DNA of 26,402 bases, taken from positions 1-26,402 of IMG/VR virus record IMGVR_UViG_3300017971_000696. The stretch is one strand, 5' to 3'. The DNA is from a virus. The notes beneath the pieces are model-generated. The model ran no database searches. It was not told the DNA's origin and saw only the letters and a list, made by a program, of their open reading frames with translations. Below, piece after piece: positions 3,001 through 22,493 of this stretch (position 1 is its first letter; every line of letters begins with the position of its first letter). The translations under genes were made by a program, and so were the position numbers.

Positions 3001-5095
3001 CGCCGGTTTCTTCTGCCGATTTCTTTGCTTCTTCACGTATTTCCCTGAGCCTGTTCCTGGTTTTCTCCGTCTGTTTCTCGACAAAGCCGAACGTCTCTCC
3101 GAGTTTTTTCCATCCAGTGTTCAAGAATTCCGTAGGCTTTTGAATCAGACCAAGAGCATAGGCTAATTCGGAAGCAAGATCGATGATGGCCACAAGGCCA
3201 GCAACAAGGATTCCGACAACGGCAATGATCTTTGCTGCGGATGCAAGGAAGATGAGTGCGGCTTTAGATGCTGCAAGAAAAGCGATACGCACTTTTCCGA
3301 GCGCGCCGATAAGACTCACGCCGCCCACACCTGCTCCTGTGATAGCCGCGATGAGATTGGCAATGGCAATCTTTGCTGCTCTTGTCGAAGCCACCGAGAA
3401 GAAAAGGATGGCCCTTGAAGCTGCTCCAAACGCGGGAACAAGTCTGGCCAACCAAAGAAGAAGTCTTCCCACAGAACCAACGAAAGCCGTTATGACACCG
3501 AGCGCACTTCCAAAAACTTCGATGAAGATGAATGCCGCTGTCGCCACGGTGCCAAGCACAGCAACCAACGCACCAAACTCAATGGCAAGCGTTGCGATCT
3601 GCTTTGCGAACTCAGGGTTCTCCTTGATCCATTCGCGCACTTGGAAAAGCACGTCTTTAACGATCTTACCGAACGGTTCGAACGCATCTCTGATAACACG
3701 CCCGATTTCATTCGCCGTTTGCTGGAACTGACTTTGAAGCGTTGCCAACTGCCGTTGCACCTCCGCTTCAACGGAGACGCCGTCTCGGAAAGCCTGATTG
3801 GCGATGAGTTGTTTCTGTGCCACTCGTTCCGTGTTCGCGGCCAGTAAGTTAAGAACACGTCCAACGCGAATGTTGTTAAGGCCGAGAAGCGTTTGCGCCG
3901 TGATCTTTCCTTGCGCATCAAGAGCATTGAATCCCTTCAACACAAGATCGAGAGCGCCGAGCATATCCGTTTTGAGGAGTTTCGAGAACTCTTCGAAGGA
4001 AACGCCCGCGACTCTTGCCGCTTCCCTGGAACGGTCTGTGATCTGCGCGAGGATTCTCTGCAAGCCTGTTCCTGTGACTTGCGCCGAAACACCCAACTCC
4101 GCGAGCACGGCACCAAGAGCCGTCATAGCTCCAATGCCTTCCGTGCCGAGAATGTTGAACTGATTCGCCACAGGTCCAAGGAACTGCACGAAACGAACGA
4201 GAGAAGCAGCGGAGACGGCTGAAGCATCGGCCACGGCATTGAATGCGTCGCCGATCTTGGTGATGTTCGCAATGTCGATCTTGAAGAGAAGCGTAAACGA
4301 CTTGAACGCTTCAGCCGCTTCCTGTCCGGTCAACTGCAACGCGATAGCGACTTTTTGGGCTTGCTTGACAAACTGCACGAGATTGTCTTGAGCAACGCCC
4401 AACCTCGCAGCCGCTTCCGCAAGATCGAGAACTTCGTTCGTTGCGATGCCGAGACTGCTTGCAACGTTCGTAAGTTCTTCTCCCAAGTCCCGCAACTGAT
4501 CGCCGGACTTTCCAACCAAACGCCCGACACGAACAAGTTTTGTTTCGAACTCGGTGAACGTTTCAACAACGCTGCGCAAGACACGCTGGCCTATCGCGGC
4601 AGCCGCCACAAAGCCGAAGAACGACTGTCTCGTTATTCCGAGAGCACGATTGAGCAATCCCGCTGACTTCGTGGTTTCCGCGAATGCTCCACCAGCACCA
4701 CCGGCAATACGAGCGCGGTTCAAGTCTCTGATTGCTTTGTTGGCTTGATTCACCACAGTAGAAAACTGAGTGAAGCCTTTAGATGCCGCCGTGGTAGATG
4801 CAGCGATCTTCCGAGTGAAGTTGTTTATCGAAGCGAGTGCCGTTTGGAGTCCGGCCAATGCCGCGCTGTCAACTTGGATTCTCGCTTTGATAACAAGTCT
4901 GTCTTGTGCTCGTTTCCGAAAAGCATCCAGCTTCTTTTCGGCGGCTTTGAGAGTAGCCGTAAGCGCAGCCTGATTGATTTTGATCTTCAGGTTAAGCCTT
5001 GCTTCGACTCGCGTCTTAAACTTCTTCAAGCGTTCTTCAACGACTTGAATACTTCGCGTGTCGAGTTGAAGCCTAATCAGAATGGTTTCGGCCAC
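2..5095 (-). CDS. Tail tape measure protein (C-terminus beyond the left edge)
   Basis: The frame is open from a GTG at 5095 to the window edge, at least 1,698 residues. The start is supported by an AAGGGAG Shine-Dalgarno sequence 7 nt upstream, fused to the stop of the preceding gene. Tape measure proteins fill the tail tube, set tail length and are ejected with the DNA. Residues about 160-370 resemble the TP901-type tape measure core (for example FTEFETKLVRVGRLVGKSGD, then alternating amphipathic helices with LGVAQDNLVQF). Residues about 500-640 are hydrophobic, with several possible membrane-spanning stretches (for example IIAVVGILVAGLVAII). From about residue 1,000 to the edge it is charged, K/E/R/Q-rich and helical, typical of coiled coil. 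No lysozyme or peptidase motif is visible in the part present. It lies directly after the frameshifted tail chaperone, which is the conserved position for this gene. Confidence 0.95.
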   Translation of the reverse strand, partial: MAETILIRLQLDTRSIQVVEERLKKFKTRVEARLNLKIKINQAALTATLKAAEKKLDAFRKRAQDRLVIKARIQVDSAALAGLQTALASINNFTRKIAASTTAASKGFTQFSTVVNQANKAIRDLNRARIAGGAGGAFAETTKSAGLLNRALGITRQSFFGFVAAAAIGQRVLRSVVETFTEFETKLVRVGRLVGKSGDQLRDLGEELTNVASSLGIATNEVLDLAEAAARLGVAQDNLVQFVKQAQKVAIALQLTGQEAAEAFKSFTLLFKIDIANITKIGDAFNAVADASAVSAASLVRFVQFLGPVANQFNILGTEGIGAMTALGAVLAELGVSAQVTGTGLQRILAQITDRSREAARVAGVSFEEFSKLLKTDMLGALDLVLKGFNALDAQGKITAQTLLGLNNIRVGRVLNLLAANTERVAQKQLIANQAFRDGVSVEAEVQRQLATLQSQFQQTANEIGRVIRDAFEPFGKIVKDVLFQVREWIKENPEFAKQIATLAIEFGALVAVLGTVATAAFIFIEVFGSALGVITAFVGSVGRLLLWLARLVPAFGAASRAILFFSVASTRAAKIAIANLIAAITGAGVGGVSLIGALGKVRIAFLAASKAALIFLASAAKIIAVVGILVAGLVAIIDLASELAYALGLIQKPTEFLNTGWKKLGETFGFVEKQTEKTRNRLREIREEAKKSAEETGALTNAVNVLNQEFKTIADATERVSTGLKDFTEVSRESINNLLTQFSRTDVKLQELIDQEGLTEGIARTLRQGAVGVRQAFDQFIQEALTSREGKVGEEEAIARVQRVVDRINFIVGKDAPQFKIEVDKANFDRVRGQVNEFIKALAFEAVSDDSEKASKALAKFLQVFGAIDAATFGAEALKQFDKDLQSLRETFDITSEQALIFATKLQASRIPLAQVAGGLNPFMFQLERLFGSGQRGIEVFDEFINTLTKFRSSIVSIPDIDFVSDLKLDTANESLRTFVNLTAEQQTKLVEIVEQQKVRAKLQKGIADNAKEIARQEEKGLTALRKRLNFQKEILRFIQRNLELQGKDKSPELLKDEENTKTIILQLEEKIAKETKKTQDNDKERVRINRLLERINRRNESLLARQAETAKDMAAQIEAIHKREMAIVDTLRKQGATAQDIAKARVKATQNALLAETTFLTKQLEVFRREQQKAVRDLDKLQKSGEAFLRRQLRLLDPNKQINALEDLFDEFQKEALKGGFVGLERVALTRFQKRFQQVAAEQKKEDQTQLQDLFKKRIEVQERLQELGFEDEKARLDSLNQNRERQLLREKGLRGQALELELQKRMFEIEQEDRVRNRNFESATKELEETETKITDIQNRTFNNQGKVQALYKSASAELQKAFAIGDARVKEMERRAKNASNGIITASRELADAARKLEEAAKLAFFRRIFKEEFDQQKATNEARLDAANATIKTFTSLQQLLDVEFREKLSEFARTFEDFGTEFLTSGKKLVAINASLGETEQLIRQLKLKETSGEILTETEREALLNAEARQKSLKRDRKRLEETEKQNRETLRAFREKQGALAVEFAERLKEAFPEREDLQKAFAEGFDKILTSVERAGPTQEAFGFVSELTDKAIRDLINDINFRRTEIEKSTQKLSDKMDTFLEALPKTIEKTFEAFKKGNEKLNEAADKAEDIAKRALSKPEVVKPVEEAAKAPAEREKKAAKVSKEDT

Positions 5096-16526: not shown

Positions 16527-16733
16527 CTACTTAGCCCTCTTGCGTCCAGCGGCAGCCATCTTGGCCATCTTCTTTGCGCCGAACTTTTTCCGGCCTATGA
16601 CAGCGGCCAAAGCCTTTGGGTCTTCAATCCCGTCTTCCTGTCTTCCCAAGGATCGTTGAAGCCGTTGAAAACGTTTCCCGGTTCCCAACTTGGGCAGCTT
16701 CTTTTTCTGTCCACGTCCGCCACGCTGTGCCAT
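16527..16733 (-). CDS. Small basic protein between terminase and portal
   Basis: A 68-residue lysine- and arginine-rich protein (MAQRGGRGQKKKLPKLGTGK, ending KKFGAKKMAKMAAAGRKRAK). Its ATG shares one base with the terminase stop (TAATG), so translation is probably coupled. No domain is visible, but the charge suggests binding to DNA or RNA; in this position it could act in packaging. That is inference. Confidence 0.65.
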   Translation of the reverse strand: MAQRGGRGQKKKLPKLGTGKRFQRLQRSLGRQEDGIEDPKALAAVIGRKKFGAKKMAKMAAAGRKRAK

Positions 16734-19501
16734 TACGCTATTACCCCCGCTCCTACCATGAAGTTCTGTTGAACTTCGATTTCGCCCGTGTCTGCCGGTT
16801 CCTGCGCGCCGTAGGCGGCAAGCATGAGAGAAACAGGGTAGTCGTCATGCGCTCCCGGTTCGTCTGGATGCTCGCACACCATGTAGTTGTTCTTGTACAA
16901 CTTTCTCAAGTCCAACATCTCTCCCACGAAGCGCCTGAAGTGTCTTGACTTTCTCGCCTTCTCTCCGGCAGGGAAGGAGAGTCTACCCGACATGAGATCG
17001 GAATGCAATATCTTAAAACCATCCGACTTCGAAGCCGGGGTGAACTTCACTCCCTGCACTTCGACAAATCCCATTTCAGGCGTTCCATCCGCCCCCTTCC
17101 CGCGATCAAACTCGCTGTAGTACACGGTGAACTTGTCAAGTCCCCATTCCCCCACACCTGTTGCATCGAGAGTGATCTTCCTCAGTCCTTTGAAATTGGA
17201 GAGGAAGTTCACAATCTCGTGGAATTGGTGCTCGTAGTTGTCGCCGAGAAGCATGTGCCAAGCAACGACACGCTTGTTGTAGGCGATCCAATGGAAACTC
17301 CCTTCAGGCGTGTCAACCCATTCATCAGCGACGGGAGTTCTCCAATCCACGTCCATTACGGTAATCACACTTGGATCGTGGATTTTTCCGAAGTCAATCC
17401 CGGCGATCTGAGTTGTCACACGAGAAGATCGGTGCCAAATCTCGTGATAGCCGCCGTGCGTCTTAGCGATTGCGGGCGTCATAAGCTGCTTGTCCGTGAT
17501 GAACTGTCCACGCTCAAGCAACCATTCGCAGCAATAGCTAAGACGGAACTCATCGCTGTCTTCACCAAGGCGAACTTTTTCTTTCTTGATGTAGTCCCGA
17601 TACATGGAGTTGTACTTTTGACAAACAAGATAGTCGTATCGGTAGTGGTTCTTCGCTTCGCCTTGCGCGTACAAACGCTGATTGGACTTGATCGACGTGT
17701 AGAAATCAGACTTCTCCGTCGAACAAGTTCCGATCTTCACAATGACGCCGTTGTACGCGGCAACCATGGGATGAAGGCTGTTACCTGTTACGATTCCATT
17801 AGCAATGACAAAATGCCGTTCATCTGGAACAGTCACGCAGTATGTGGGTTTCTTTCCGATATGTCTGACGGATTTAACACTAACAAACTGTATGTCTTCA
17901 GGATAAAACTGACTTCTACTCCGCCCTCTTTTTCCTTGAATAGTGCGGATACCCGCTTCAAGAGCGTCTTGTTTTGGCCCTAAGTTAAACTGCTTATGAA
18001 ATTCACGCACATCTTCAACAGACTTTATATGCAGTCGGTACATATAGGTGCCTAGACGTTCTTTTATTCCCGGCAAATTCCCTGTGCTTTCCACGAAACC
18101 TTCGAACTTAGCACATTGAATGCCGAAGTGTAACAAAGTTTTCCGAAGGCCGTCTACAAGATACTCTGAACAGTTGGAAAATGAAACAACAGGTTTCACA
18201 GTCGGATTTTCTATACTGCCGTCAGCTATAATCAACCCGGAAGCAAGTCCGCGCAGAAATTCTAAGCTCCAAGGAAGATTGGGTATACGCTTGTTCTCAC
18301 GCTTTGCCCCCCAAACGCCGATTTTTTTCAGCCATTCTGTCAACTTATTAGAGCCTTTCTTGTTTCCAGGCGAAGTAAGCCCACATTCAAGCATTCCACT
18401 AGATTGCTCGTTATAGACTACAGGACGCACGCCGAATTCATGCGGACATATACGGTCAAGTAGTTTCTTTACAGAAGGCTCAACAATTATTTGCGGCTTA
18501 TCGCCAGTGAAACATCCGTCACCAAGAAGCAAGCCAAGCAAGAATCCTCGATCAAAGTTCCCTAAGACACCTGCTGCATTATTCAATCGTGTAGGAACAG
18601 CCATTTGCCAGCCGGGCTGGATTTCGTAAGTCAAGGCTTCGAAAGGAACCCTCCGAGTTCTGCTGCGCACAAAATGCCGGTGATTGGCCGTAACGTCTAA
18701 GTATCTTCCTCCTGCTAATGTCACACGATACACGGGTTGCACACCATTATCATGGTACTCAATATCACGAGACTCAAAAAAGCCAGAAGGAGTCAACACA
18801 GGCAGTTTCTTTTTGACAACTTCTTCCACAGGAACTTCGATTCCTCCAGAAGTAATGAAAAGCGTGCCTTCAGCAAAACACTTCCTCACCTTCAGCGTCC
18901 CGATGTCTTGCGCCTCATCAAGAATCAGGATGTGGTACGTGTCGCCTTCGATGTGTGACTGTTCCGAAGCCGACTGAGAACGAATCCGGCTTCCATTCGA
19001 AAGACGAGTCTTGTTGGCGTTGCCGATGTCAAGGGCAACGTTCAATTCGGCGGCTACTTCCTTCGTGGTGTCCGTTTCGAGCGTGTCACGAAGGCGACTG
19101 TAAACGATGTCAGCCTGTTCCTGTTTCGGCGCGTAGATGCCGACAACGACACCGTACTTGTAGCCGCGATAGTTGCCTTGCTCGTCGGTACAGTTCAAGC
19201 GCCAATCGTCTTCGAAGATTTTCATTCTCGCAAGAAGCGGAAGAATCAAGCAGCACGCGGCGAGAATGTCCGCAATCAACTGAGACTTGCCGGACTGCCT
19301 AGCCCAAAGCGCGGTAAGCATGTCGCCGTCATGGAGAAGAACGGCTTCCACAAAACGATAGCCGAACTCCTTCTGATACTTGAAGTGCCTCTTCTGAGAA
19401 AGGATTTCGGCAAGACGGAGAATACGCAAAACAAGACTATCCAACGGCACAGTCGGTTGACTGGTTTCCCGCGTGCAGACACGCGGTGCCATGGGTTCCA
19501 T
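16733..19501 (-). CDS. terL: Terminase large subunit precursor with an intein
   Basis: Motor and nuclease of DNA packaging. The start at ATG 19501 lies after the preceding stop and gives 922 residues; a GTG at 19597 or ATG at 19492 cannot be excluded, as none has a strong ribosome binding site. ATPase: Walker A LWARQSGKSQL near residues 66-75, Walker B ILILDEAQD with D195-E196, coupling motif GTCSTEKSDFY. Nuclease: D703 in AGIDFGKIHDP, D779 in ITLDATGVG, and D886 or D887 in GAHDDYPVSLMLA. The intein at residues 208-574 separates Walker B from the coupling motif, so the protein is inactive until spliced to about 555 residues. The small terminase subunit is not identified in the window. Confidence 0.93.
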   Translation of the reverse strand: MEPMAPRVCTRETSQPTVPLDSLVLRILRLAEILSQKRHFKYQKEFGYRFVEAVLLHDGDMLTALWARQSGKSQLIADILAACCLILPLLARMKIFEDDWRLNCTDEQGNYRGYKYGVVVGIYAPKQEQADIVYSRLRDTLETDTTKEVAAELNVALDIGNANKTRLSNGSRIRSQSASEQSHIEGDTYHILILDEAQDIGTLKVRKCFAEGTLFITSGGIEVPVEEVVKKKLPVLTPSGFFESRDIEYHDNGVQPVYRVTLAGGRYLDVTANHRHFVRSRTRRVPFEALTYEIQPGWQMAVPTRLNNAAGVLGNFDRGFLLGLLLGDGCFTGDKPQIIVEPSVKKLLDRICPHEFGVRPVVYNEQSSGMLECGLTSPGNKKGSNKLTEWLKKIGVWGAKRENKRIPNLPWSLEFLRGLASGLIIADGSIENPTVKPVVSFSNCSEYLVDGLRKTLLHFGIQCAKFEGFVESTGNLPGIKERLGTYMYRLHIKSVEDVREFHKQFNLGPKQDALEAGIRTIQGKRGRSRSQFYPEDIQFVSVKSVRHIGKKPTYCVTVPDERHFVIANGIVTGNSLHPMVAAYNGVIVKIGTCSTEKSDFYTSIKSNQRLYAQGEAKNHYRYDYLVCQKYNSMYRDYIKKEKVRLGEDSDEFRLSYCCEWLLERGQFITDKQLMTPAIAKTHGGYHEIWHRSSRVTTQIAGIDFGKIHDPSVITVMDVDWRTPVADEWVDTPEGSFHWIAYNKRVVAWHMLLGDNYEHQFHEIVNFLSNFKGLRKITLDATGVGEWGLDKFTVYYSEFDRGKGADGTPEMGFVEVQGVKFTPASKSDGFKILHSDLMSGRLSFPAGEKARKSRHFRRFVGEMLDLRKLYKNNYMVCEHPDEPGAHDDYPVSLMLAAYGAQEPADTGEIEVQQNFMVGAGVIA
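17780..18880 (-). mobile_element. Intein with LAGLIDADG homing endonuclease, inside the terminase gene
   Basis: 367 residues, from Cys1 (CFAEGTLFITSGG, block A) to the C-terminal Asn (HFVIANGIVTGN), followed by Ser of the C-extein (SLHPMVAAYNG). Block B is LDVTANHRHF, with the TxxH histidine. Two LAGLIDADG motifs are visible: GFLLGLLLGDGCF and FLRGLASGLIIADGSIE, each with the acidic residue of the active site. Block F is PTYCVTVPDERHFVIA. The penultimate residue is Gly (VTGN) rather than the usual His. The extein junction is VRK|S. The segment looks richer in A and T than the flanking exteins. It is a homing element in a conserved and essential ATPase. Confidence 0.93.
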
Positions 19502-19509
19502 AAGACTGT

Positions 19510-19896
19510 TCACGGATTCCGCGTCTCCAGTTCCTTCTGAATGACTTTCACGTCTATCTGCATCTGTTGCTGGCGCGTGTCCATCTTTGTGTTCCACGCC
19601 TTCTGTTCTTCCATGTGCCGCTCGATTCTCTTGTACGCTTTCTCGGTGATCTCCTTGTTGTGCTCGTTATCTTTCTGCAAGTCCTTGATGTTGCCGTGGT
19701 TTTCCCAACTCCGCTTGTTGACCGGCAAAAGGCGCTCTTCGTTTCTCTGAATGCCTTCTTTGTTCTCTTTCACATCCCGCTGCATCTGAAGAAACGTGTA
19801 GTAGAATCCGATGATCGCGGCGCATAGCGCGAGCACGAACTTAATCAATTCAAATCCATGCTTCGACGCATGTTTCTTCAGCGTTGAAGTGTTCAT
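19510..19896 (-). CDS. Membrane-anchored coiled-coil protein (second membrane partner)
   Basis: A 128-residue protein that starts at ATG 19896, overlapping the receiver gene's stop as ATGA; AGGAG lies 9 nt upstream. Residues about 15-37 (HGFELIKFVLALCAAIIGFY) form one membrane helix near the N-terminus. The rest is a long charged coiled coil (QMQRDVKENKEGIQRNEERL, KDNEHNKEITEKAYKRIERH) ending in MQIDVKVIQKELETRNP. This topology, a short N-terminal anchor and a coiled-coil domain, is shared with some phage holin-like and XhlA-type lysis accessories, but there is no motif for a pore. The coupling to the receiver domain suggests a joint function. Confidence 0.75.
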   Translation of the reverse strand: MNTSTLKKHASKHGFELIKFVLALCAAIIGFYYTFLQMQRDVKENKEGIQRNEERLLPVNKRSWENHGNIKDLQKDNEHNKEITEKAYKRIERHMEEQKAWNTKMDTRQQQMQIDVKVIQKELETRNP

Positions 19897-20264
19897 ACAG
19901 GCGCACTCCTGTTGCTGACCCTCGCTACGTAAGGAGTGAGAGCCGCTTGAACATCCGGCAACGACGGCTTCCTGATGAAATCCCGTTTGCACTCCGACAT
20001 GAGATTCCACGCCATATCCGTGCTCAACGGTGTCCAAATGACGACGAGAGTCTTGATTTCAGAAAGAACAGCGATAACTTCGTCTGCATCGATTGTGGAC
20101 AACACATCCGCCAAAATCAAATCGTAGGTTTTGTTTTCCAGCCTACGTTTGAGTATGTATATATTGGGACATGTGTCCACGAACGCTTGCGGAACGAAAC
20201 CTGCGATCCTCTCCGCAACATGATTCGCAAAAACCCTATTGGAATCGAAAACGAGAATGTTCAT
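19893..20264 (-). CDS. Stand-alone response-regulator receiver domain protein
   Basis: A 123-residue protein with the (beta-alpha)5 pattern of CheY-like receivers and no output domain: MNILVFDSNRVFANHV (strand 1, acidic D7), then YDLILADVLS with the putative phospho-acceptor D53, VIWTPLS with T78 at the switch position, and DFIRKPSLPDV with the invariant lysine K99 followed by Pro. The spacings (D53 to T78, 25; T78 to K99, 21) are close to CheY (30 and 22). The usual second acid next to D7 is Ser (S8), so metal binding may be weaker. Both ends overlap neighbours by ATGA. A phosphorylation-regulated or phosphate-independent (pseudo) receiver is possible; it may be acquired from a host. Confidence 0.8.
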   Translation of the reverse strand: MNILVFDSNRVFANHVAERIAGFVPQAFVDTCPNIYILKRRLENKTYDLILADVLSTIDADEVIAVLSEIKTLVVIWTPLSTDMAWNLMSECKRDFIRKPSLPDVQAALTPYVARVSNRSAPV

Positions 20265-20575
20265 CGCTTTCCTCTCCCGCTACGTGTAGTTGCTATATCC
20301 CATTCGTTGAACTCTTTCCGGGTCAAATAGATTCCCGGAAAACCTGAAACAGTCGCGTCAAGATCGTTGATGTCCTTCTTGGCGTCATCTATCCTCTGGT
20401 AGAGATGTCTCACATCTTCACGGTGTTTCTCTTCGTGAGCGATCAATCTTCCTTCGACTTCTTTCAACTTGCCCCAAAAGAGCCGCCCAATAACAAAGAT
20501 CAACGTTCCAACGACAGCTAAGAGCGCCGAAAGGAGCGTAAAAATGATCGTCATTGTGTAGTTGTCACCTTTCAT
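20261..20575 (-). CDS. Membrane-anchored coiled-coil protein (first membrane partner)
   Basis: A 104-residue protein. Residues 8-32 (MTIIFTLLSALLAVVGTLIF) are one strong membrane helix at the N-terminus. Residues 35-75 are a charged helix (KLKEVEGRLIAHEEKHREDV, RHLYQRIDDAKKDINDLDAT). The C-terminus YLTRKEFNEWDI recalls a short motif in small phage membrane proteins. AGGAG is 7 nt before the ATG. The stop overlaps the receiver gene start as ATGA. A holin-like or XhlA-like role would fit the size, but holin identity is not shown by sequence. Confidence 0.75.
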   Translation of the reverse strand: MKGDNYTMTIIFTLLSALLAVVGTLIFVIGRLFWGKLKEVEGRLIAHEEKHREDVRHLYQRIDDAKKDINDLDATVSGFPGIYLTRKEFNEWDIATTRSGRGKR

Positions 20576-20584
20576 CTCACACTC

Positions 20585-20932
20585 CTATCCGCTGTAAGTC
20601 ACGTCGCCTTTGATCTTGAACACGCCTTGAAGAACTGTGTGAATGTCGCCAGAAGGCAACTCTACTTCAACGTCATACACGAAGTTTCCGCAATAGTTCA
20701 ACTCCCTTGTGTCAGCGGGAACAAGATAGATTTCGAGCACGCCATTTGTTGGATCGGTGATCGCGGCTTCGCCAGCAACGGCAGAAGACTTCTCGATCAA
20801 AGCTGTGGTGTTGAAGTCCTTTCGGACGGTGAATCGCGCTGTGCTTCCGGTGATGTCAAACACAACGCCGTCAACGTCCTTAACGGTCACTTCAAGCGTT
20901 TGGTTGTCACCCCTGAAGATTTCAACGTCCAT
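20585..20932 (-). CDS. BppU-like / Ig-like tail or baseplate protein
   Basis: A 115-residue beta protein. The sequence MDVEIFRGDNQTLEVTVKDV, then GVVFDITGSTARFTVRKDFN and FVYDVEVELPSGDIHTVLQG matches the pattern of N-terminal domains of phage upper baseplate proteins (BppU-like): a strand with RGD.xTL, a D-(x)TG strand, and a final Y.YDVEV strand with G.(V/I).T.. It probably attaches a receptor-binding or fibre protein to the tail tip. AAGGAG 7 nt before the ATG is fused to the preceding TAA. Confidence 0.65.
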   Translation of the reverse strand: MDVEIFRGDNQTLEVTVKDVDGVVFDITGSTARFTVRKDFNTTALIEKSSAVAGEAAITDPTNGVLEIYLVPADTRELNYCGNFVYDVEVELPSGDIHTVLQGVFKIKGDVTYSG

Positions 20933-21117: not shown

Positions 21118-21675
21118 CTACTCCTTGACCACCTGATACGTAAGCATCTCGTCGTCCACGTTGTACGTCGCCGATACGGAGTATTCCGCGAGAACGTTCG
21201 TGTTCGCGATGGTATCCGCCTTGGAAGGGTATATCCTGATCGTCGCGGAAGTCAAGTTGTGTCTCGCGTCATACACCGGAGAGAAGATTCTGAAGTTCTC
21301 TTGGACAAGCCCAAGGACTCTTTGCAAGAGGGTCAGAAGGGAAGTTACGTCTCCGGTAACTGTATCGACGGCAGTCCGAATGGAATCCAGATCGTTTGCT
21401 TCCACGAGCACGGTTTCAAGTTCGGTCGAAATGTATTCGTCCAGCGTCGTGTGTCCTGCATCGGTGTACGTCACGAAACGAGCGTTGTACTTCCCTACGG
21501 CAGTGAAGGTGTAGGACGCTTCATAGTAGCCGCCCGAACGATGCGGAAGATCGACAGTGACAAAGGGTGTTGCCGATCCGGGAATGAAGATTTCCACTTG
21601 AGGAAACTTCGTGGTTTCCCTATCAGCCAACTGAAGGCCCAAAGAAGTTGTCTCGTCTTTGACGCCACGTATCAT
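21118..21675 (-). CDS. Probable tail or surface-associated beta protein
   Basis: A 185-residue protein that starts at ATG 21675, overlapping the amidase gene stop by ATGA, with GAGG 8 nt upstream; a longer frame to 21783 would run inside the amidase gene. The N-terminal half is beta-rich (FPQVEIFIPGSATPFVTVDL, EASYTFTAVGKYNARFVTYT) and has an Ig-like look. A coiled-coil helix follows (SIRTAVDTVTGDVTSLLTLL, QRVLGLVQENFRIF), then beta strands near the end (ATIRIYPSKADTIANTNVLA). It lies between the amidase and the micro-protein and before the BppU-like gene; tail-tip or fibre components would fit. Confidence 0.65.
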   Translation of the reverse strand: MIRGVKDETTSLGLQLADRETTKFPQVEIFIPGSATPFVTVDLPHRSGGYYEASYTFTAVGKYNARFVTYTDAGHTTLDEYISTELETVLVEANDLDSIRTAVDTVTGDVTSLLTLLQRVLGLVQENFRIFSPVYDARHNLTSATIRIYPSKADTIANTNVLAEYSVSATYNVDDEMLTYQVVKE

Positions 21676-22493
21676 TTCAAGAACCTCGTTGCATCCGGCG
21701 CTGTCAACACTGCCTGTCTCACTTTTTCCGGCCACATGCTTTGCTTGCTGAACATTGGATTGTTGCAGGCCACGGAACAACAAATCATCGGGAACTGCAA
21801 GAACGCATCCGCTAGATAGACTCTCTGCTTGAATCTATCGAACGGAAGAAAGATCGCTGTCAGAGAAGCCTTGATTTTCCTCTTCGACGGAGCATGTCGC
21901 TTGATCTTGTCACAGCAGAAAGCGCCAAGTTCGGTGCAATACGAAGCGGGCTTACCGCTCGGCTTGAAATCGAAGTTGTAGCCGATGCCGGATTGACTCA
22001 ATGCGGCATCAACAATGATCTGCGCTTCCGAATGCACGACCCACGGACGAACGACAGCGGCATAGTCGGAATGGAACAGAAGTTCTCCCAAGTCTTGAAC
22101 AACCACTCCTTCGCTGATCGCGTGTGTAATCGTTCTTACGAACGTCCCCACTTGTTGTCCGCCCGTATGAACTCTGTCCACTCCAAGAGATCGAGGTTTG
22201 TAGATGAACTTCGTTTTCTGATCCCTGTATCCGGTGACAGGCCCGGTAAACACAGCAAGATGTTTCCATGCTCCAGGAATGAACTTCGCGGAACCAATAT
22301 AGTGTCTGGATTGTGTAAGGATGAAGTCTCCGGGCTGCATGAGACTCGTAAAGCAACGGTAGTCATCCCATGTGAAATGCACTTTTGGCATCCCGTAGAC
22401 AACAGCGGGCCAAAGAAGCGGATTCAGACAGAGACACTTGGGAGAAGCCCAAATGTCGCCGCCAAAAGCCGCTAGCCTCGCCTGAATGTTCAT
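21672..22493 (-). CDS. Permuted papain-like amidase (YiiX/YaeF, C92-type), candidate cell-wall hydrolase
   Basis: A 273-residue protein. It has the two diagnostic parts of permuted NlpC/P60 enzymes: a strand-turn-His block (LMQPGDFILTQSRHYIGSAK, then IPGAWKHLAVFTG, H78) and later the Cys block (GKPASYCTELGAFCCDKI, C186, with E188 next to it). In the family His and Cys form the catalytic pair and act on peptide or amide bonds, in phages usually cell-wall peptides. The C-terminal 70 residues (KRKIKASLTAIFLPFDRFKQ, then CCSVACNNPMFSKQSM) are unassigned and rich in Cys. No signal peptide is visible. It may be an endolysin or a virion-associated lysin, in a cluster with membrane coiled-coil proteins. 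Confidence 0.8.
   Translation of the reverse strand: MNIQARLAAFGGDIWASPKCLCLNPLLWPAVVYGMPKVHFTWDDYRCFTSLMQPGDFILTQSRHYIGSAKFIPGAWKHLAVFTGPVTGYRDQKTKFIYKPRSLGVDRVHTGGQQVGTFVRTITHAISEGVVVQDLGELLFHSDYAAVVRPWVVHSEAQIIVDAALSQSGIGYNFDFKPSGKPASYCTELGAFCCDKIKRHAPSKRKIKASLTAIFLPFDRFKQRVYLADAFLQFPMICCSVACNNPMFSKQSMWPEKVRQAVLTAPDATRFLK

Follow-up and report, generated by a model that had tools for sequence, protein, structure and literature searches.

The DNA analysed here, referred to as the window, is a 26,402-base IMG/VR record (IMGVR_UViG_3300017971_000696) from a virus of bacteria, in which a small gene on the minus strand (20264..19893), here named REC, starts with ATG and encodes a protein of 123 amino acids without an output domain. 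REC lies between two genes of the same strand for proteins with predicted transmembrane (TM) helices, TM_A (20261..20575, 104 aa) upstream and TM_B (19510..19896, 128 aa) downstream, and it overlaps each of them by 4 bp, with the sequence ATGA shared between the stop of TM_A and the start of REC and again between the stop of REC and the ATG of TM_B. Both neighbours were found to carry one N-terminal transmembrane helix (hydropathy 2.72 over residues 11-29 in TM_A, and 1.99 at residue 18 in TM_B) followed by a long, charged, coiled-coil-like tail, the coiled coil being judged by eye. The profile matches of TM_A were weak (PHROG 462/6664), with XhlA sub-threshold, and TM_B was weakly similar to Rz-like spanins (phrog_739, E=0.002; phrog_6664, E=0.00095).

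Transcription runs from a permuted papain-like amidase (22493-21672) through two small ORFs and a BppU_N-like gene to TM_A, REC and TM_B, and then on to the intein-containing large terminase subunit, portal, scaffold and capsid. The BppU_N-like small protein (20585..20932, minus strand; Pfam BppU_N 2.7e-5, phrog_1084 3e-20) is encoded upstream in the operon of REC. The amidase, which is of the C92/YiiX type (21672..22493, minus strand; Pfam Peptidase_C92 5.6e-9), is a candidate cell-wall or lysis enzyme for which an endolysin role may be considered; it and TM_B are the lysis-type candidates of the window, and no holin was identified in the 26,402 bases. The large terminase subunit (16733..19513, minus strand), recognised by a PHROG terminase match, contains an intein with a LAGLIDADG endonuclease (Pfam LAGLIDADG_3 7e-10; Intein_splicing 6e-8, just under its cut-off). 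A GTG at 19513 is a possible start of this gene, which would overlap the stop of TM_B by 4 bp, and the ORF listing takes the GTG at 19597. Over about 925 columns, the window terminase aligns at 32% with the 910-aa terminase of Bacteroides phage BS162P1, which probably carries an insert related to the window intein.

The REC frame had a coding score of 0.15 in comparison to 0.07 for the best other frame, with negative values elsewhere among the six frames compared. The gene is present in the window and in three contigs nearly identical to it, and within the ORF there is one difference only, at position 20166 in sister contig L026, where the third base of a codon is changed without effect on the protein. 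When IMG/VR, GenBank phages and GTDB genomes were searched with the REC protein, near-identical copies or nothing were returned, so that no diverged homologue was found, and the phage relatives identified through capsid and terminase had no sequence homologue of REC, TM_A or TM_B.

An earlier note on this DNA, made from the letters alone, had described REC as a stand-alone receiver, and the ORF and the residues that it listed were all confirmed: D7 (first acid of the DD pair, DD1), D53 (phospho-acceptor position), T78 and K99 followed by P100, with the non-acidic S8 in place of the second acid (DD2); F96 provides an aromatic residue at K-3. Among 24,736 Pfam models, Response_reg (PF00072) was the sole match of REC, at E=0.059 and 14 bits, with residues 3-102 placed on profile positions 1-102 of 111. 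The search that the note had proposed thus yields a nearly full-length match, though one that falls under Pfam's curated cut-off of 30.2 bits. Because the receiver hypothesis had been stated beforehand, the relevant figure is the significance for this single model, which is about 2e-6. Across 50 records of the window phage and its relatives (E up to 1 per genome), the same profile found only the copies of REC and one clear receiver, in the distant relative G039.

We also scored REC with an independent receiver HMM of our own, built from 80 bacterial loci and E. coli CheY. The score was 10.8 bits (P=1.8e-5), and D53, T78 and K99-P100 were placed on the conserved active-site positions. This score was reached by none of 20,000 composition shuffles and by 2 of 20,000 block shuffles, and REC ranked first among the 22,330 frames of the window phage and related phages. 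The hhalign comparison of REC with receivers covered 108 columns with D7, D53, T78 and K99 in register at a probability of 60%; 300 shuffles did not exceed 35%, and the next protein of the window reached 2.4%. The assignment of D53 as the phospho-acceptor Asp at the end of beta3 was the same in the HMM, MAFFT and hhalign alignments. T78, the Thr/Ser at the end of beta4, was in register by our HMM and hhalign and was moved by one column in MAFFT, and the Lys-Pro at the end of beta5 (K99-P100) fell on invariant columns of the MAFFT alignment. A PHROGs search with REC gave nothing meaningful, and a PDB sequence search gave two matches only, both near E=1 and one of them a non-receiver. From these results we consider that REC is very probably a divergent stand-alone receiver domain.

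The predicted structure depended on the input. AlphaFold gave a poor model from the single sequence (pLDDT 54), and with an alignment of 40 bacterial receivers it gave a (beta-alpha)5 model at pLDDT 85, in the order E2-6 H10-23 E28-32 H35-44 E49-52 H60-68 E73-78 H82-92 E95-98 H102-119, so that the fold expected by the earlier note was modelled with confidence only when a receiver alignment was supplied. In the alignment-guided model D7, D53, T78 and K99 lie at or just past the ends of strands 1, 3, 4 and 5, and its best PDB matches by Foldseek were all receivers, with TM-scores up to 0.80. Since the supplied alignment provides the fold, the model indicates that the REC sequence is compatible with a receiver fold and is no independent proof of it.

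REC shares with stand-alone receivers of the CheY/Spo0F type (PF00072) the (beta-alpha)5 order of the alignment-guided model with D7, D53, T78 and K99 at strand ends, the aromatic residue at K-3, and the lack of an output domain. It differs from them in the Ser8 at DD2, in lacking the Pro at D+4 and the Gly at D+8, in carrying a Pro at T+1, and in an identity of only about 20%. Bourret and colleagues define a pseudo-receiver as a receiver without any one of five catalytic residues, and they note that about 80% of pseudo-receivers have a non-acidic residue at DD2, a position that binds the metal (Mg2+) directly (PMC12632262). Given its probable identity as a receiver, REC is thus a pseudo-receiver by this published definition because DD2 is replaced by Ser8, the only one of the five to be lost, and it may have lost efficient phosphorylation. 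It resembles the bacterial pseudo-receivers in the position that is missing, and differs from them in being phage-encoded and stand-alone, in keeping D, T and K, and in the overlap of its gene with membrane-protein genes. The altered metal site suggested by the note therefore stands, since the direct Mg2+ ligand is absent. As for the proposal of a constitutively active receiver, an Asp-to-Lys change at the position equivalent to DD2 activates CheY and has no such effect in EpsW (PMC4671073), so that constitutive activity is not to be read from the REC sequence.

Receivers located directly after a TM/coiled-coil gene were also found in unrelated phages (R8W and H4/4, R9Y1, XX1924 and PB15, V19 and R22Y, and the IMG/VR contig L288), and in four of these groups holin, endolysin or terminase genes adjoin them. 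In the Alteromonas phages R8W and H4/4 a tail fibre and then a class II holin precede a 98-aa coiled-coil protein with an N-terminal TM helix, after which come a 153-aa receiver, a membrane protein, TerS and TerL, while in R9Y1 a tail fibre is followed by a 121-aa N-terminal-TM coiled-coil protein, a 150-aa receiver and a lysozyme. XX1924 and PB15 have a 101-aa coiled-coil protein with a C-terminal TM helix, the receiver, and then a DUF5675 or M15 peptidase; the gene after the peptidase is GTA_holin_3TM by Pfam in XX1924, and PB15 encodes a near-identical protein there. In its annotation the PB15 receiver starts at 4010, which is too late; an ATG at 3989 (L279) restores strand 1 and overlaps the upstream gene by 4 bp. 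In V19 and R22Y, which are similar to each other, an N-terminal-TM protein is followed by a receiver without the phospho-acceptor (L280 4998-5450 and L305 3001 onward, with Pro or Thr in its place and the Lys lost), and the surroundings of the V19 receiver contained no recognisable lysis gene. In contig L288 an N-terminal-TM coiled-coil gene precedes a receiver; some 0.5 kb of unassigned sequence separates the receiver from TerS, and a TerL, assigned by position and length only, follows.

Two further phages have receivers close to membrane genes. In V22 the receiver is preceded by a 125-aa protein and, two genes before it, by an annotated permuted papain-like amidase that is not detectably similar to that of the window (BLASTP E=1.4); a TM protein resembling an inner-membrane spanin follows the receiver. 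In G039 (IMGVR 3300035661_000053) the gene of a receiver-PAS-PAS protein has small membrane genes around it and an N-acetylmuramidase endolysin gene downstream; the protein (L269 6256..5015, 413 aa) has clear Pfam matches. Three other phage groups (L293, L295/L296 and L298) encode receiver proteins of 210-285 aa whose C-terminal segment is strongly hydrophobic; two of these groups have a small N-terminal-TM coiled-coil gene directly after the receiver. The scans of IMG/VR for receivers gave few loci, several of them full-length regulators or host-DNA-like.

A small TM gene was immediately upstream in 5 of 11 stand-alone receiver lineages, which were not selected for a TM neighbour, in comparison to 1 of 81 control genes matched for similar size and spacing (Fisher p=5e-5), in a small, post hoc test that was designed after the pattern had been seen and that shows no more than that the receivers are located among membrane genes. 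The window phage could be added to these five lineages as a sixth, as REC has a single-TM coiled-coil gene (TM by hydropathy, coiled coil by eye) directly upstream and overlapping it. REC and the receivers of R8W (gp48), R9Y1 (gp12), XX1924, PB15, V19 and V22 (gp30) are alike in being stand-alone among late or lysis genes, and all but that of V22 directly follow a single-TM coiled-coil gene, usually with overlapping start and stop. REC differs from the Alteromonas phage receivers in that these have the canonical DD/D/S-T/K residues, except in V19/R22Y, and it has no specific sequence kinship with them. Descent of REC from the Alteromonas lysis-region receivers was considered and found unsupported, their HMM giving 0.8 bits, a score matched by 852 of 10,000 shuffles; because REC fails this HMM, the common arrangement may be convergent or fortuitous. 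TM_A scored 13 bits against an HMM of the other TM/coiled-coil proteins, and since one shuffle in 10,000 equalled this score, only a similar architecture is claimed for these proteins. A part of the phage N4 pinholin is also called "Receiver domain" (PMC12642591), but it has nothing to do with the receivers discussed here.

Stand-alone receivers act through changed contacts with a partner, and TM_A and TM_B are the obvious candidate partners because their genes overlap REC. We propose that REC is a degenerate receiver made together with two TM proteins as a regulatory partner that tunes a late membrane or lysis step, a reading which, taken as a whole, falls slightly short of an even chance. 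The three proteins would be co-produced from overlapping genes at the end of a late membrane/lysis segment, directly before the terminase, and cytosolic REC would bind one or both membrane proteins; such a partnership seems to us evenly balanced between true and false. The binding would then determine the timing or the occurrence of the late membrane step, probably lysis, and control of lysis timing by REC is put forward more tentatively, as somewhat less probable than its opposite. The recurring neighbours of phage receivers, namely holin, endolysin, a spanin-like protein and terminase, point to the end of infection. Because DD2 is missing, Mg2+-dependent phosphotransfer should be weak, and control would be expected to be mainly by conformation and protein contact, perhaps with residual phosphorylation. 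The loss of the phospho-acceptor in V19/R22Y, where the TM gene is kept, indicates that phosphorylation is not needed in all such receivers and fits a contact-based role. The broader suggestion that unrelated tailed phages repeatedly place a receiver by a single-TM coiled-coil gene as a lysis-control module, one that responds to phosphorylation by host two-component systems or, where the receiver is degenerate as in REC, acts through contact alone, is speculative and rather doubtful.

These results also bear on what the earlier note had said of context and function. It had called receivers unusual in a phage structural cluster, which is only partly so, since in other phages, too, stand-alone receivers lie next to terminase or lysis genes; the same neighbourhoods lend support to its idea of lysis timing. 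Its alternative of adsorption gains little, since the window receiver is not near tail-fibre genes, in contrast to the V22/A5 receiver, which is (PMC10579305). The note had also considered that REC draws phosphate from a host kinase, and a decoy or phosphate sink which takes phosphoryl groups from, or binds, a host histidine kinase and so rewires a two-component system would agree with the retention of D53, T78, K99 and the Y-T coupling aromatic F96 and with the lack of an output domain; phage proteins acting on host two-component systems are known, as with PIT4 (PMC10714779). We nevertheless regard it as unlikely, given the Ser at the direct Mg2+ ligand DD2 (for its role see PMC12632262), the Pro rather than a small residue at T+1, the late-gene position and membrane partners that point to a late role, and the fact that no kinase is known for REC; any link of REC to a host kinase would be putative. 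A resemblance by chance, with REC a small Rossmann-like alpha/beta late phage protein and not a receiver by descent, would account for the Response_reg score under the Pfam cut-off, the two marginal PDB matches and the poor model made without an alignment. The active-site residues in register by two methods, the near-full-length alignment, the nulls that were beaten and the pLDDT of 85 with a receiver alignment make it quite improbable.

Phage receivers have so far been classed as auxiliary metabolic genes, R8W gp48 being read as PhoB (PMC8228385) and V22 gp30 as a class II auxiliary metabolic gene (PMC7289586), and REC could by analogy tune host regulation, for example in phosphate starvation. 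However, at 153, 149 and 123 aa, respectively, R8W gp48, V22 gp30 and REC have no room for a PhoB-type DNA-binding domain, and each of them is encoded among late membrane or lysis genes, which makes this reading very improbable for REC. R8W gp48 (L275 6992-7453) is annotated as a DNA-binding response regulator despite its length of 153 aa. A role as a cyclic-phosphate processing enzyme of the cREC type, which has been proposed for jumbo-phage domains related to receivers, deserves hardly any credence: such domains are common in phages (PMC7824862, PMC9503650), and one viral protein so labelled appeared low in the structural search with the REC model, but general receivers match REC better and no RNA ligase, Nudix, sirtuin or 2H gene was recognised beside it. 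The cREC phage receivers and REC are both small phage domains with a receiver fold, which in REC is a predicted one, while REC has other gene neighbours and gave no match to their profile (PF20274), and the cREC assignment was dropped.

With REC taken as a degenerate receiver acting with its membrane-protein neighbours, what is new is the genomic context, a receiver beside TM/coiled-coil genes in lysis and packaging regions. No literature linking receivers to phage lysis cassettes was found among open-access papers, which is weak evidence of novelty. If phage receivers belong to the lysis cassette, a direct route would exist from host signalling to lysis timing. A phage pseudo-receiver retained next to membrane genes would, moreover, offer a compact example for the question of how pseudo-receivers function when they are not phosphorylated (PMC12632262). 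Apart from the receiver, several ORFs of sister contig G001 (L271 1-4340) resemble by eye the genes of 7-deazaguanine (queuosine/preQ0) synthesis, which suggests possible DNA modification.
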